From a virus, in the IMG/VR virus record IMGVR_UViG_3300030838_000043, positions 1 through 26,211 of that record: 26,211 bases of DNA. One strand, given 5' to 3'. Below are positions 8,833-26,211 of the stretch, piece by piece. The notes below the pieces were generated by a model. It was given only the letters and a program-made list of their open reading frames with translations. It searched no databases and was not told where the DNA came from. A program made the translations under genes and the position numbers. Within the stretch, counting starts at the first letter, position 1. Every line of letters starts with the position of its first letter.

Positions 8833-9218
8833 AGAGATTTGGCCTTGATGTCACTCGCCAGCAGTGCGAAGCATACGACCCGACCAAGTACGTCGGACGC
8901 AACCTGCATGTGAAGTGGCAGACCCTGTTTCACGACACTCGCAAGCGCTTCCGTGAAGAGACGGCCGAGATCCCGATCGCCAACCGAGCATATCGACTCC
9001 GGGCCCTTGGTCGCATGGCCGAGAAAGCCGAGAACATGAAGAACATGGCGTTGACTGCCCAGTTGCTGGAGCAGGCCGCGAAGGAAGTCGGGGACGTCTA
9101 CGTCAACCGCCAAAAGAAAACCGATGATGAGGGTGAGCCTGTTGTGCCCACCTCTGTGCCGGTCCATGTGATTGATGCGAGGAAGCCGGATGCCGAGCCT
9201 GAATGTTCCGCAGGCTGA
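8742..9218 (+). CDS. terS: Small terminase subunit (DUF2280 family)
   Basis: 158 aa matching DUF2280, a terminase small-subunit-like family. The N-terminus (AALRDEVKAFVVQALACFDTPSQVVASVKERFGLDVTRQQCEAYDP) holds a helix-turn-helix likely to bind the packaging site. A central helical region for oligomerisation follows (RFREETAEIPIANRAYRLRALGRMAEKA), then an acidic, proline-rich tail. It would mark phage DNA and load the large subunit. The ATG at 8742 has only a weak ribosome binding site (ACGGA). Its 3' end overlaps the large-subunit gene by 29 bases. Confidence 0.87.
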   Translation: MAALRDEVKAFVVQALACFDTPSQVVASVKERFGLDVTRQQCEAYDPTKYVGRNLHVKWQTLFHDTRKRFREETAEIPIANRAYRLRALGRMAEKAENMKNMALTAQLLEQAAKEVGDVYVNRQKKTDDEGEPVVPTSVPVHVIDARKPDAEPECSAG

Positions 9219-10491
9219 CTTCCTCCAGCTCCCGCACAAGTTCCGTGGCTTCGTTGCCGGGTTTGGCTCGGGCAAGACCTGGGTCGGCTGCGCGGCGCTC
9301 TGCAAGCACGTTTGGGAATGGCCGGGCATCAACTCGGGTTACTTCGCTCCGACTTATCCGCAGATCCGCGACATCTTCTTTCCGACCATCGAGGAAGTGG
9401 CCTACGACTGGGGTCTGAAGGTCAAGACGAAGGAGAGCGACAAAGAGGTCGACTTCTACAGCGGCAAGCAGTATCGAAGCACAACGATCTGCCGCTCGAT
9501 GGAGAAGCCGCAGACCATCGTCGGCTTCAAGATCGGTCATGCGCTGGTGGACGAGCTCGATGTTCTGCCGTCCCTGAAGGCGCAACACGCCTGGCGCAAG
9601 ATCATTGCCCGGATGCGCTATAACGTGCACGGGCTGAAAAACGGCGTGGACGTAACTACGACCCCCGAGGGGTTCAAGTTCGTCTTCCAACAGTTCGTGA
9701 AGCAGTTGCGCGACAAGCCAGCGCTGAAGGAAATGTATGGGCTGGTGCAGGCCAGCACCTTCGACAATGAGCTGAACCTACCGGACGACTACATCCCATC
9801 GCTGATGGAGTCGTACCCCGAGCAACTGATCCGCGCTTACCTCAATGGCCAGTTCGTTAACCTGACGTCCGGGTCGATCTACCACGCGTACGACCGCAAG
9901 CTGAATCAGTGTTTCGACACTGTGCAGCCAGGCGAGCCCCTGTTCATCGGCATGGACTTCAACGTCGGCAAGATGGCGGCGATCACCCATGTCAAACGTG
10001 ACCTGGGTCTGCCGCGCGCAGTGGATGAGCTGATGGATGGCTATGACACGCCGGACATGATCCGCCGCATCAAAGAGCGATATTGGCGTCACAACGGCAA
10101 CGACTTCGAGAAGACCTGCGAAATCCGGATCTATCCGGACGCCTCGGGTGATTCGCGTAAGTCGGTAAATGCCAGTGTCACAGACCTCGCCATGCTCAAA
10201 CAGGCCGGCTTCGCAGTCATCGCGCCGGCGGCCAACCCGCCAGTGAAAGATCGTATCAACGCCATGAACGCCATGTTCTGCAACGCGCAGGGCGAACGGC
10301 GCTACCTGGTCAATCCGTTCACCTGCCCGACTTATGCAGATGGCCTTGAGCAGCAGATCTGGGCGCCCAACGGCGAGCCCGATAAGAGCCAAGGGAACGA
10401 CCACGCCAACGACGGCGGCGGTTACTTCATCCACCGCGAGTACCCGATCGTGAAACCGGTCACCTCAATGAAAATGGGAGTCGCCCGATGA
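9190..10491 (+). CDS. terL: Terminase large subunit
   Basis: 433 aa. Walker A GFGSGKT is at residues 24-30 and Walker B ALVDE at 118-122, with Glu122 as the probable catalytic carboxylate of the packaging ATPase. The RNase H-like nuclease domain starts near FIGMDFNVG (Asp256), with further acidic residues in IYPDASGDSRK and the closing GNDHANDGGGYF. The enzyme cuts concatemeric DNA and pumps it into the prohead through the portal. The frame is open to 9172, but GAGG lies 8 bases before the ATG at 9190, and the protein start then fits the family. The stop overlaps the portal gene by four bases (ATGA). Confidence 0.95.
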   Translation: MPSLNVPQADFLQLPHKFRGFVAGFGSGKTWVGCAALCKHVWEWPGINSGYFAPTYPQIRDIFFPTIEEVAYDWGLKVKTKESDKEVDFYSGKQYRSTTICRSMEKPQTIVGFKIGHALVDELDVLPSLKAQHAWRKIIARMRYNVHGLKNGVDVTTTPEGFKFVFQQFVKQLRDKPALKEMYGLVQASTFDNELNLPDDYIPSLMESYPEQLIRAYLNGQFVNLTSGSIYHAYDRKLNQCFDTVQPGEPLFIGMDFNVGKMAAITHVKRDLGLPRAVDELMDGYDTPDMIRRIKERYWRHNGNDFEKTCEIRIYPDASGDSRKSVNASVTDLAMLKQAGFAVIAPAANPPVKDRINAMNAMFCNAQGERRYLVNPFTCPTYADGLEQQIWAPNGEPDKSQGNDHANDGGGYFIHREYPIVKPVTSMKMGVAR

Positions 10492-15364: not shown

Positions 15365-15645
15365 CCCAGTCAACGGTGCTGGCAGCGGGCATCACTGCTG
15401 CAACCTCCACTGACATCGTCGTGGCGGCCGGGGTGACTGTCACCGTCGGCATCTTTTCGGCGGTCGCTGATTCGGTCCCGCTGGGCTTGGCCTTTGGTAT
15501 TGATCAGGTGACACCAGGTGCGAGCAACACCATCGGTTGCCTGGACGGACTCAAACGCCAAGTCATGCTGTCCGGCCCGGGGACATTCCGCGTGAAGCGA
15601 CCGGCCTATACCGGCACGGCTTTCGGTGTGTTTCTGGAGACCTAA
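15361..15645 (+). CDS. Hypothetical head-region protein (94 aa)
   Basis: A 94-residue protein rich in Val, Thr and Gly with alternating hydrophobic residues (TDIVVAAGVTVTVGIFSAV, LKRQVMLSGPGTFRVKRPAYTGTAFGVFLE), which suggests an all-beta fold. Its size, composition and place after the capsid gene fit a capsid decoration or stabilising protein, but this is inference. It starts in an ATGA overlap and ends one base before the next gene. Confidence 0.72.
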   Translation: MTQSTVLAAGITAATSTDIVVAAGVTVTVGIFSAVADSVPLGLAFGIDQVTPGASNTIGCLDGLKRQVMLSGPGTFRVKRPAYTGTAFGVFLET

Positions 15646-15646
15646 A

Positions 15647-17050
15647 ATGCTCATTCGATCGATCGTTCAATCCACGATTCAACCGGTTGTTCGGTCGGTT
15701 GTTGATCGGCTTCGCATCTCAGGGGCTGCTCCGGCACTGCCGGCGCCTACGACGGTCAACTTCACCTCGGCTCAGGTTTCCCCGGGCTTTAGCGGCTCGA
15801 TCAGCACAACCAAGAACGCGGCCCGCATATACGCTCGCGGCGCGCTGACACTTTGGTCGGGGTTCATTTCCGGTACCGAGGCAAAGCTTACTGCTCCGTC
15901 CGATTTTGGCGACAACGCTGGATCTATGGAAGTTGCCATCAACGGCGGTGCATTTTCCGCCGCGCCCAACGTCGCATCGGTCTACACCCTGTTCACCGGT
16001 TTACCGCACGCCACCAGGTTCGTCGAAGTGCGATGGGTGGCGGCTATGGCGAATGCCCCGTACATCGCATCGTCCGGCAACGTGCTCGCGGTCACTGGGC
16101 AACCTCCGGCGCTGCAGACCTTTGTCGGCAAGATTGAGCCCGGTGCTGATTCGGCCCTTGGCCTGTACAGCGGCGCGATCATCGCCAACGCGGCCAACTA
16201 CACGCCGCCGCTCGCGGCACCGAAGGGGCAGACCTACGGCTCCAGTATCAACTCGGTGAAGATCAAGGGCGCGTTCACCAAGCTTGCGGTCACGCTCAAC
16301 GGCACTCGCAGGGTAGGCGTCAGCAAGAACGGTGGCCCTGCCGCGTACTACTCGGCTACGGATGAAGGCTCATTCCCACCCCGCGCACTGGTTATCCCTT
16401 GCGATGGGTCGACGTCAACCTACAACATTTGGGATGACGGCAACTACAAGGACACCGGCGGCACCTTCTGCGTGTCGGCGGACTCCGCATTCCTGGACAT
16501 CGGCACTCGTCGGCGCCTGGATCAGTACGGCGACTCGATCACGTTCGGCTCGGGGCCTGGCGCCACGTCGTCGGACACCGAGACCATGCGCGTTGCGGCG
16601 GCCCTTGGCTTTGTCGGCAGTACCAACGGCATCAGCGGTCAGACCGTCGGTGGCGGCAAGACCATGCTCGACAACGTCCTGCCTCTGCGAACCGTAACGA
16701 GCAGCGACGTGGCGATCCTGGCACTGGGCGGGAATAACGCCTCCGACGGCATCGACTCTACCGAGCAAGCGGACTATGGGCTGTGCATTGATAAGCTGCT
16801 GGCCAAGGGATACGGAAAGGTCCTGTGTCGCGGCATTCTGCCAAACGCCTTGGCTCAATCGCTGGTCGACGCTGCGAATGTCATCCTGAAGTCGGTGATG
16901 GACGCCAAGGCGAATCCCAAGCTTGTGTGGATTGACCCGACCACCTGGACTGGCTTCACCACACAAGACGGAACCCACCCAGACGCCGCGGGCTACGTGA
17001 CCATCGCCGGTTACGCCATTCCTGCCTACACTACAGCGCTTGGTCTATGA
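15647..17050 (+). CDS. SGNH/GDSL hydrolase-domain structural protein
   Basis: 467 aa. The C-terminal part (about 288-467) has all four SGNH blocks in order: Ser297 in QYGDSITFG, Gly in STNGISGQTV (about 325-334), Asn363 in LALGGNNASDG, and Asp441/His444 in DGTHPDAAGY. This should be an active ester hydrolase, of the type that removes acetyl groups from sugars or cleaves lipids. The N-terminal ~285 residues are Thr/Ser/Gly-rich and look beta-structured (Ig-like or galactose-binding-like), as in structural appendages. An N-terminal helix (IVQSTIQPVVRSVVDRLRI) may anchor it. TGGAGA precedes the ATG at 15647. Its location in the head cluster, not with tail fibres, is unusual. Confidence 0.85.
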   Translation: MLIRSIVQSTIQPVVRSVVDRLRISGAAPALPAPTTVNFTSAQVSPGFSGSISTTKNAARIYARGALTLWSGFISGTEAKLTAPSDFGDNAGSMEVAINGGAFSAAPNVASVYTLFTGLPHATRFVEVRWVAAMANAPYIASSGNVLAVTGQPPALQTFVGKIEPGADSALGLYSGAIIANAANYTPPLAAPKGQTYGSSINSVKIKGAFTKLAVTLNGTRRVGVSKNGGPAAYYSATDEGSFPPRALVIPCDGSTSTYNIWDDGNYKDTGGTFCVSADSAFLDIGTRRRLDQYGDSITFGSGPGATSSDTETMRVAAALGFVGSTNGISGQTVGGGKTMLDNVLPLRTVTSSDVAILALGGNNASDGIDSTEQADYGLCIDKLLAKGYGKVLCRGILPNALAQSLVDAANVILKSVMDAKANPKLVWIDPTTWTGFTTQDGTHPDAAGYVTIAGYAIPAYTTALGL

Positions 17051-24050: not shown

Positions 24051-24739
24051 GTGCACTTCAAGGCCAACTCGCGCTTGCGAGTGGTATGTCAATCTGGGAA
24101 GGCTTCGACCTGATGCTGCCTGGTCAGACACTTCGCTTTCATGCTGGCGTGAACGAAACGCTTGGCTCAGTTGTTTGGCAAGGGAACGTCTATACGCCTT
24201 GGCCGCTCAACGGTACCGAGTTCGCTACGCCGAGCCAGGGATCGCCGGCCAGGCCAAAGCTGCAGGTCGGTAACTTCGGCGGCACCATTTCTGCGCTGTG
24301 TCGGCAGTATGAAGACCTGCTTGCAGTGAAACTCAAACGCCGCCGCACGCTGGTCAAGTACCTGGACGCGGTGAACTTCTCTGCCGGCAACCCAACTGCA
24401 AACCCAGCCGAAGAGTACCCGGTCGAAACCTGGATCATCACGCGCAAGGCCAATGAGACGCCGACCGCCGTCGAGTTCGAGCTTGGTTCACCGCTTGACC
24501 TGCAGGGCGTGAAGTTGCCACGGCGCCAGGTGGTGGCCGGCACTTGCCTGTGGGCTTACCGCTCGGGCGAGTGCGGATACGGCGGCAGCCCGGTGGCCGA
24601 CTATGCCGACAACCCAACCAGTGATCCCGCCAAGGACCAATGCAGTCGGACCATGAGGGGCTGCAAGAAACGCTTTGGCGCAAATGGCGAGCTTCCTTTC
24701 GGCGGCTTCCCGGGCATTGCCCTCGTACCTAGGTTGTGA
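24047..24739 (+). CDS. Minor tail protein L homologue (Fe-S cluster type)
   Basis: 230 aa of the lambda gpL family. A GTG start overlaps the preceding stop (GTGA) and has GAGGAGG upstream. The N-terminal beta domain (about 15-160) includes LPRRQV at its end. The C-terminal domain has the four conserved cysteines Cys167, Cys176, Cys199 and Cys206 (GTC, GEC, DQC, RGC), which in lambda gpL bind a [4Fe-4S] cluster. The family's closing GELPFGGFPGI is present. It forms part of the tail tip. Confidence 0.93.
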   Translation: MSALQGQLALASGMSIWEGFDLMLPGQTLRFHAGVNETLGSVVWQGNVYTPWPLNGTEFATPSQGSPARPKLQVGNFGGTISALCRQYEDLLAVKLKRRRTLVKYLDAVNFSAGNPTANPAEEYPVETWIITRKANETPTAVEFELGSPLDLQGVKLPRRQVVAGTCLWAYRSGECGYGGSPVADYADNPTSDPAKDQCSRTMRGCKKRFGANGELPFGGFPGIALVPRL

Positions 24740-24741
24740 CC

Positions 24742-25473
24742 ATGAGTGAAGTATTCAATAAGTGCCGGGCTGACGCCGAGGCGCATGCGCGTGCGGAATA
24801 TCCTCGCGAGTCGGTCGGCCTGGTCGTCAGCGCTCGCGGAAAGCCGTCGTATGTGCCGTGCCGAAACCAGTCGGAAGAGCCGGATCACTTCATCCTGCAT
24901 CCTGAGGACTACGTCGCCGCCGAAGACCTGGGCGACATCATTGCTGTCGTGCATTCCCACCCGGACGCCGGCCCCGAACCGAGCTTGCACGATATCGCCA
25001 GTCACGCGGTCGGCCGCATGGCTTGGTGGATTGTTGGCCTGCAGGATGGCGCTGCGACCTGGCATGAAATGCCGGCCGCCGGTGAAATGCCGCTGGAGGG
25101 TCGGACCTTCATCCATGGTGTCATCGACTGCTACACCCTTATCCGCGACTACTACCGCCAAGAGCGCGGTGTCACGCTTATGGATTTTCACCGCAAGGAT
25201 GATTGGTGGCACAGCGGCGAGAACCTGTACGTCGAGAACTTCACCAAGGCCGGGTTCGTTGAGGTCGACACACCAAGCAACGGCGACGTCATCTTGATGG
25301 CGATCGGCAGCCCGACACCTTGCCATGGCGCGATCTGGCTGGACGGTGACGTCCTGCTGCATCACCTTTACAGCCGGCTGAGCTGCCGTGAGGTGTACGG
25401 AGCGGCCTACCGCGAGCGCACGACTCACATCCTCAGGCACAAAGATGCTCAGCTTAAATCGCCCATCGAGTAG
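24742..25473 (+). CDS. Tail tip peptidase K homologue (JAMM + NlpC/P60)
   Basis: 243 aa. The N-terminal domain is a JAMM/MPN metallopeptidase: Glu23, His71, His73, Ser81 and Asp84 keep the exact H-x-H-x7-S-x2-D spacing. The C-terminal domain is NlpC/P60-like, with Cys130 in GVIDCYTLIRDYY and His195 in PCHGAIW. This is the lambda gpK architecture, needed for tail tip assembly and probably for local peptidoglycan digestion at entry. GTG at 24736 is possible, but the ATG at 24742 is better spaced from AGG. The last 25 bases overlap, tail to tail, with the minus-strand gene that follows. Confidence 0.93.
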   Translation: MSEVFNKCRADAEAHARAEYPRESVGLVVSARGKPSYVPCRNQSEEPDHFILHPEDYVAAEDLGDIIAVVHSHPDAGPEPSLHDIASHAVGRMAWWIVGLQDGAATWHEMPAAGEMPLEGRTFIHGVIDCYTLIRDYYRQERGVTLMDFHRKDDWWHSGENLYVENFTKAGFVEVDTPSNGDVILMAIGSPTPCHGAIWLDGDVLLHHLYSRLSCREVYGAAYRERTTHILRHKDAQLKSPIE

Positions 25474-26048
25474 ATGGAGAATCCGTTCGTAGTGAGGTGA
25501 TTAATCTGCACAGTTCCGCCGATGTAAACGCGGTCTTGGGCTTTCCTATTCTCCTGCAGAATCTGAGCTCGCATGATTTCCGGAGCGCAGTCTGGGAAAG
25601 ACCTTAAATTTATGCCGCTCTTGTCCATAAGGTCCGGCTTAAATCCGAGGCCGTAATCCAATTTTTCGGACGCGAAGTTCGACTCTGACCGGTAAGCAAA
25701 ACCATGGATGTTTCCAGTATCGTCGGAAAACCCGAAGTGATAGATCGTTGCTGTCTGCTGATGGAGGGCGGGGAATTGAGCATTCAGTTCTCGCCAGAGG
25801 GACTGAAGAGTCTCGGGAGTATGTTCATTGATCGCATCTACATCGAGGGAAACACCTTGATTATTCACAAGGCCGAGCCATCTGTTCAGCAGAAGCGCCG
25901 AGCCTGTGCCAGCAACAATCATTCTGATGTGAGGGAGGGCAATGGCTTTGCTACAAAACCCTGGGGCAGATCCATCGGGGTAATGTAGAAGTGTGTCGGT
26001 TGCGACGATGACTTCGTTTGCGTCCGTATAAAAGAGCAGCGACGACAT
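25449..26048 (-). CDS. HslV/proteasome-like Ntn hydrolase (moron)
   Basis: 199 aa. After removal of Met the chain begins Ser-Ser-Leu-Leu. Counted from that Ser1, Asp17 (IVATD) and Lys33 (GFCSK) fall at exactly the numbers of the HslV catalytic residues Thr1, Asp17 and Lys33, and a Gly-rich turn (IVAGTGSALLLNRW) follows as in HslV's AGFAGGTADAF. Bacillus CodW shows that HslV-type enzymes can use an N-terminal Ser. The rest (HFGFSDDTGNIHGFAYRSE, VYIGGTVQINHLTT) is beta-rich. Substrate unknown. AGGAGG four bases before the ATG fixes the start, which matters because the N-terminus is catalytic. The gene is more AT-rich than its neighbours, opposes the tail operon and separates gene K from the expected gene I. 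Confidence 0.72.
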   Translation of the reverse strand: MSSLLFYTDANEVIVATDTLLHYPDGSAPGFCSKAIALPHIRMIVAGTGSALLLNRWLGLVNNQGVSLDVDAINEHTPETLQSLWRELNAQFPALHQQTATIYHFGFSDDTGNIHGFAYRSESNFASEKLDYGLGFKPDLMDKSGINLRSFPDCAPEIMRAQILQENRKAQDRVYIGGTVQINHLTTNGFSIYSMGDLS

Positions 26049-26211
26049 TTGGCCTCCTGGCAAAGTTTGCTTAAGGACAGGAGGCTACTATCGGCAGAAG
26101 GCTGGGCGTTACTGGGGATTCGTACAGGCGGCACATCCTGCGCTACCAGCGATAGGCCCTGTATTTGTCCGCATCCGGCCTGTTAGAGTCGCCAAAACAC
26201 ATGGAGGCTCA
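26049..26211 (+). other. Intergenic region with ribosome binding site of next tail gene
   Basis: It holds the minus-strand AGGAGG of the Ntn-hydrolase gene at its left end. At its right end TGGAGGCTCA (26202-26211) is a ribosome binding site for a plus-strand gene starting just outside the window, presumably the lambda I homologue. Transcription for it may come from a local promoter in this gap, but I see no convincing -35/-10 pair. Confidence 0.5.

Follow-up and report, generated by a model that had tools for sequence, protein, structure and literature searches.

A predicted proteasome-like Ntn-hydrolase-fold protein encoded by a probable moron gene in an antisense cargo module of the phage tail operon

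We questioned what a reversed gene lying in the late tail operon of a phage encodes, and what benefit it might bring to its carrier. The gene is found in the window, by which we mean the whole stretch of DNA analysed (26,211 nucleotides; IMG/VR virus record IMGVR_UViG_3300030838_000043, positions 1 to 26,211). A first-pass annotation had read it as an HslV/CodW-like Ntn hydrolase with an N-terminal serine, inserted as a moron. The gene, its ribosome binding site and its convergent neighbour are located as follows:

25449–26048, minus strand: gene for the predicted proteasome-like Ntn-hydrolase-fold protein (hereafter the Ntn gene), 199 aa, with Ser2 (mature position 1), Asp18 (17), Lys34 (33) and Gly49
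26053–26058, minus strand: ribosome binding site AGGAGG, 4–5 nt before the ATG at 26048
24736–25473, plus strand: lambda-K-like minor tail protein gene, convergent neighbour given for context, outside the cargo module

The open reading frame is present as claimed, its translation begins M-S, and it has its own ribosome binding site (AGGAGG, 26058–26053 on the minus strand), which is kept in most Pseudomonas phage copies. The gene faces the lambda-K-like gene head-on and overlaps its 3' end by 25 nt. The annotation's description of it as reversed and AT-richer than its neighbours was also correct, with a GC content of 50.3% compared to 58–61% (gene K, 61.1%; whole window, 58.8%). In a near-identical contig (L001/L010), the gene order is tape measure, M, L, K, the reversed Ntn gene, a small accessory gene, I and J, and phage copies of the gene keep this reverse orientation in slots between K and I or between I and J. 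Pairwise dN/dS values of 0.08–0.22 among the phage copies indicate that the gene is real and under purifying selection.

Sequence and profile searches of Pfam, NCBIfam and the PDB with the Ntn protein returned no meaningful match, including no similarity to proteasome subunits or HslV. Remote proteasome-like subfamilies are known to elude profile searches. All 31 members of the Ntn family matched phrog_13702, whose PHROG label is "terminase large subunit"; we rejected this label because the protein is 199 aa long with a predicted proteasome-type fold and the phage encodes its large terminase elsewhere, at 9172–10491. We then turned to predicted structure, as the annotation had suggested. The AlphaFold model of the window protein (pLDDT 92.3, pTM 0.89) has a proteasome-beta fold, and a model of the distant relative L046, which is 41% identical, reached a pLDDT of 92.8. 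For each protein, the 50 best PDB matches in Foldseek were all 20S proteasome entries (E 4e-9 to 2e-7), with TM-scores of about 0.45–0.66, a clear but distant fold match, and the viral structure matches included phage proteins that carry the name of a proteasome or HslV subunit. Both models consist of strands S1-S2, a further strand pair, helices H1 and H2, four strands, one helix and two final strands. The H2 position is occupied in the window protein by helix 70–91, while a single helix stands at the position of the H3/H4 pair (155–167 in the window protein and 152–164 in the L046 model). The proposed Ntn-hydrolase fold thus came through this check, and the models make an alpha-beta-beta-alpha sandwich of the proteasome-beta type almost certain.

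The proposal also survived a second check, on conservation: the residues that the annotation had matched to catalytic positions were highly conserved in an alignment of 31 diverse members (A3). In mature numbering, Ser/Thr1 and Asp17 were found in 31/31 sequences and Lys33 in 29/31. The residue encoded at position 2, the predicted nucleophile, is Ser in 29 members and Thr in 2, and Thr takes the place of Ser in L030, L031 and L044. G49, which closes the "GTG" turn that had also been noted, is invariant (31/31), and the T of this turn is altered in L057 and L058. Lys33 is replaced in two deltaproteobacterial-type relatives:

L056, 8001–8648: Ntn relative with Gly in place of Lys33
L058, 2839–3477: Ntn relative with Arg in place of Lys33

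The loss of Lys33 in these two relatives and the turn change in L057 and L058 suggest that catalysis may not be universal in the family and that some distant members, such as the L056/L058 lineage, may be inactive. Removal of the initiator Met before a small second residue is an established rule. Since the relatives begin at the same M-S/T and the sequence 5' of this start is not conserved as protein, the Ntn protein lacks a propeptide; with no conserved N-terminal extension, ordinary Met removal would free Ser1. Taken together, structure prediction and residue conservation indicate that this is a proteasome-like Ntn-hydrolase-fold protein with Ser/Thr1, Asp17 and Lys33 and without a propeptide, consistent with the N-terminal serine nucleophile originally proposed.

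Relatives of the Ntn protein are widely distributed. Searches with the single protein as query found none in GenBank phages or in a genome scan, but the family alignment as query did find them in genomes, with 22 relatives in GTDB. These GTDB hosts comprise Pseudomonas prophages, Enterobacteriaceae, Woeseiaceae, Methylocystaceae, an Alcaligenaceae, a cyanobacterial MAG, a Chloroflexota MAG, deltaproteobacteria and two Actinomycetota. Relatives were also found at 32 loci in IMG/VR and in 141 plasmid records, which are mostly conjugative and mostly from Enterobacter, IncX7 and IncHI2A plasmids among them. The Pseudomonas phage copies cluster together in the tree (support 99/100), and its two plasmid copies adjoin that of phage L035. 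The neighbours of the plasmid and chromosomal copies are varied accessory genes with no consistent defence genes among them, and a search of a defence library with the Ntn protein gave no match (best E 0.02); weak matches to Tad6, ZorB and ThsA were at chance level and were dismissed. At plasmid or chromosomal loci (L051–L055, L007 and L009), the Ntn gene has three ORFs beside it (415, 599 and 705 aa), of which the 415-aa one is a tyrosine recombinase by Pfam. Such a three-ORF arrangement is that of tripartite-recombinase elements, and these copies may be cargo of recombinase-type elements.

Phage homologues of the proteasome, PPH and AAH, were described in 2021 in a survey with 22 subfamilies, among which AAH, found in phages, and GPH, which is gammaproteobacterial, are both uncharacterised proteasome-like proteins (PMC8665760). 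The Ntn family resembles PPH in being a phage-encoded single proteasome-type subunit with Ser/Thr1, Asp17 and Lys33, no propeptide and no known AAA+ partner. It differs in size and helices, with 199–225 aa, H1 and H2, and one second-layer helix, compared to about 140 residues and no H2 for PPH as described (PMC8665760). The Ntn family may be identical to one of these 22 subfamilies.

We next considered the region upstream of the Ntn gene. Upstream regions of the phage copies cannot be aligned with each other save for one block ~30–100 nt before the ATG, which in the window forms part of a two-block element followed by an inverted repeat:

26085–26127, minus strand: two-block promoter-like element, block 1 CTGTACGAATCCCCAGTAAC (26127–26108) and block 2 TAGTAG (26090–26085)
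26052–26085, minus strand: perfect 8-bp inverted repeat, GCCTCCTG / CAGGAGGC, in the leader up to the ribosome binding site

The consensus is TG(T/G)A(C/T)G(A/G)A(A/T)(T/C)(C/G)CCAGTAAC for block 1 and TAGTAGC for block 2. Two exact variants of block 1 were used to scan IMG/VR and returned at least 120 stretches in one case and 84 in the other. TAGTAG was left out of the search pattern; among 185 unique instances it lay at offset 36 in 122 and at offset 35 in 20. A distance of 17 bp, a promoter-like geometry, separates TAGTAG from the end of block 1 (AGTAAC); neither block is a good match to the sigma-70 consensus, and no good promoter was found there. Because the block spacing varies between 36 and 35, coding on the other strand is an unlikely cause of the element's conservation.

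A downstream ORF was present for 220 of the 232 element instances examined. Members of the Ntn family account for 22 of these 220 cargo ORFs, with 74–80 nt between element and ATG, and the remainder fall into dozens of unrelated clusters on more than 200 phage contigs or loci (L093–L290). Since cargo ORFs were chosen mechanically, some of the smaller clusters will represent wrong starts or chance ORFs. The cargo includes HSDR_N-, GNAT-, RDD- and membrane-protein-like proteins as well as proteins weakly like trypsin and aspartyl proteases. The latter likeness, to aspartyl and trypsin-like proteases, was seen for the cargo genes of L181 and L238, and suggests that peptidase-like morons may be common in this antisense module. 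A tail gene could be recognised within 8 kb of 199 instances, and in every one of these the element was antisense to the tail genes, most often in the K-I slot (91), followed by I-J (27) and M-L (15), with other slots partly covered. The cultured P. aeruginosa phages YMC11/02/R656 and PP9W2 carry the element before reversed genes of unknown function. It was absent from the scanned Ntn relatives beyond the Pseudomonas phage clade, and a limited search of the open-access literature found no description of it.

The element resembles a LexA box (CTGT-N8-CCAG), and we considered whether it belongs to the SOS regulon. The cores of the host lexA and recA boxes are AT-rich, and the degenerate element pattern has only 0–1 exact copies in each of six whole Pseudomonas genomes, so LexA/SOS control was rejected. 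The best element score in the host lexA, recA and hslV loci was 3.3, compared to 60 in the window. A putative role of the inverted repeat in the leader would be to mask the Ntn gene's ribosome binding site. A conserved hairpin of this kind is no more than a candidate, since the repeat is clear in the window and some relatives and absent in others, and folding of 104 leaders gave a mean z of only -0.6 against mononucleotide shuffles.

Swappable cargo behind one shared antisense element, with near-fixed block spacing and strict orientation, argues that the Ntn gene is a moron; the same slots carry dozens of other cargo ORFs, and its GC content is unlike that of its neighbours. The shared promoter-like module strengthens this part of the first-pass annotation beyond the evidence then given, and we regard it as very probable that the gene is a moron, carried in a standard cargo module that runs opposite to the late tail operon. 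It is probably expressed in the lysogen, from the prophage and independently of the late operon, in which case the two-block element would serve as its promoter during lysogeny. Methionine aminopeptidase would then expose Ser1, which together with Lys33 and Asp17 would cut, or transfer, an amide bond in one specific protein; that Ser1 is catalytic seems reasonably likely. The enzyme would act without an ATPase and not as an HslV-type double ring. The benefit would go to the lysogen, most likely by hindering rival phages, and this would account as well for the spread of the family on conjugative plasmids and other mobile elements.

The closest tested precedent is Tab of Pseudomonas phage JBD26, a minus-strand moron of the late operon that has its own promoter and blocks tail assembly of competing phages (PMC10884400). 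Tab and the Ntn gene are both minus-strand morons inside a late operon, with a promoter that is shown for Tab and putative for the Ntn gene. They differ in that Tab has 83 residues and no known domain, and its gene lies between terminase genes; the element was absent when JBD24, a relative of JBD26, was scanned. By this analogy an anti-phage role is a tentative suggestion that falls somewhat short of an even chance. The explanation as a whole, a lysogen-expressed moron encoding a predicted Ser1-dependent enzyme likely directed against rival phages, appears to us evenly balanced between right and wrong. Its most specific version, in which a single-subunit proteasome-type enzyme cuts or ligates one protein and serves as a prophage anti-phage effector in a swappable antisense promoter cassette, is doubtful.

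Several other functions could be served by such a protein. The first-pass annotation had favoured specific kinship with HslV/CodW, and a compartment protease of that type could borrow HslU from the host. The catalytic positions 1, 17 and 33 and the proteasome-beta-type fold class are indeed shared with HslV/CodW, and the host genomes examined carry hslV. The kinship itself was not supported, given an hhalign probability of 0.3% against HslV, no match to the Pfam Proteasome model in a profile search and one helix fewer than in HslV/CodW. Helices H3 and H4 provide the main contacts between beta-subunit rings (PMC8665760), and with only one helix at their position in both models, it is unlikely that the protein forms a double ring of the HslV kind and docks on HslU. 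In agreement with the annotation's view of a lone subunit, the genes adjacent to the Ntn gene include no HslU/ClpY or other ATPase gene and are instead tail or varied accessory genes. We therefore consider an HslU-borrowing protease highly improbable. It is also very improbable that the protein is catalytically dead, with the Ntn fold as a scaffold for binding a phage or host protein: the loss of Lys33 in L056 and L058 points this way, but the near-complete conservation of all three putative catalytic residues over a very diverse set does not, and an exchange of Ser for Thr is what is expected of an Ntn nucleophile.

The constant location of the phage copies raises the question of a role in virion assembly, such as cutting the tape measure protein or the tip proteins K, I and J. 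In the phage clade the gene is always found in the tail-tip region, and in L035 it adjoins a J-like protein. A tail-maturation peptidase is nevertheless very improbable, since the gene runs antisense to the tail operon and shares its upstream element with unrelated cargo, is missing from most phages that have these slots (22/220 cargo genes), and has relatives on plasmids without tail genes. A possible, if rather unlikely, reading is a lysogenic-conversion enzyme outside defence, which would process or inactivate a host protein of stress, surface or metabolism and raise host fitness while leaving other phages unaffected. The occurrence of relatives on conjugative plasmids and chromosomal islands without consistent defence neighbours is in keeping with this, as is the presence of the shared element before GNAT-, RDD- and membrane-protein-like genes. 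Nothing specific speaks against it, and it is the analogy with Tab and other morons that favours phage competition.

Phage proteasome-like proteins have already been catalogued, and we found none with a known role. The Ntn family is small and well conserved, needs no propeptide processing and has a defined genetic setting, which makes it easy to test. The antisense element provides a sequence handle to more than 200 cargo genes of dozens of families in Pseudomonas-type phages, and thereby a candidate list of genes that may be expressed in lysogens and possibly act against phages.

Two further features of the window were observed. Between the head and tail genes, positions 15626–17050 encode a 474-aa protein with a GDSI (SGNH-hydrolase-like) motif and no PHROG match. 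In the ORF at 1462–2049, the N-terminal part of a replication-protein family (phrog_11527) is fused to an HNH endonuclease domain; a full O-like gene comes after it, and the region 1462–2972 looks like a homing-endonuclease insertion.
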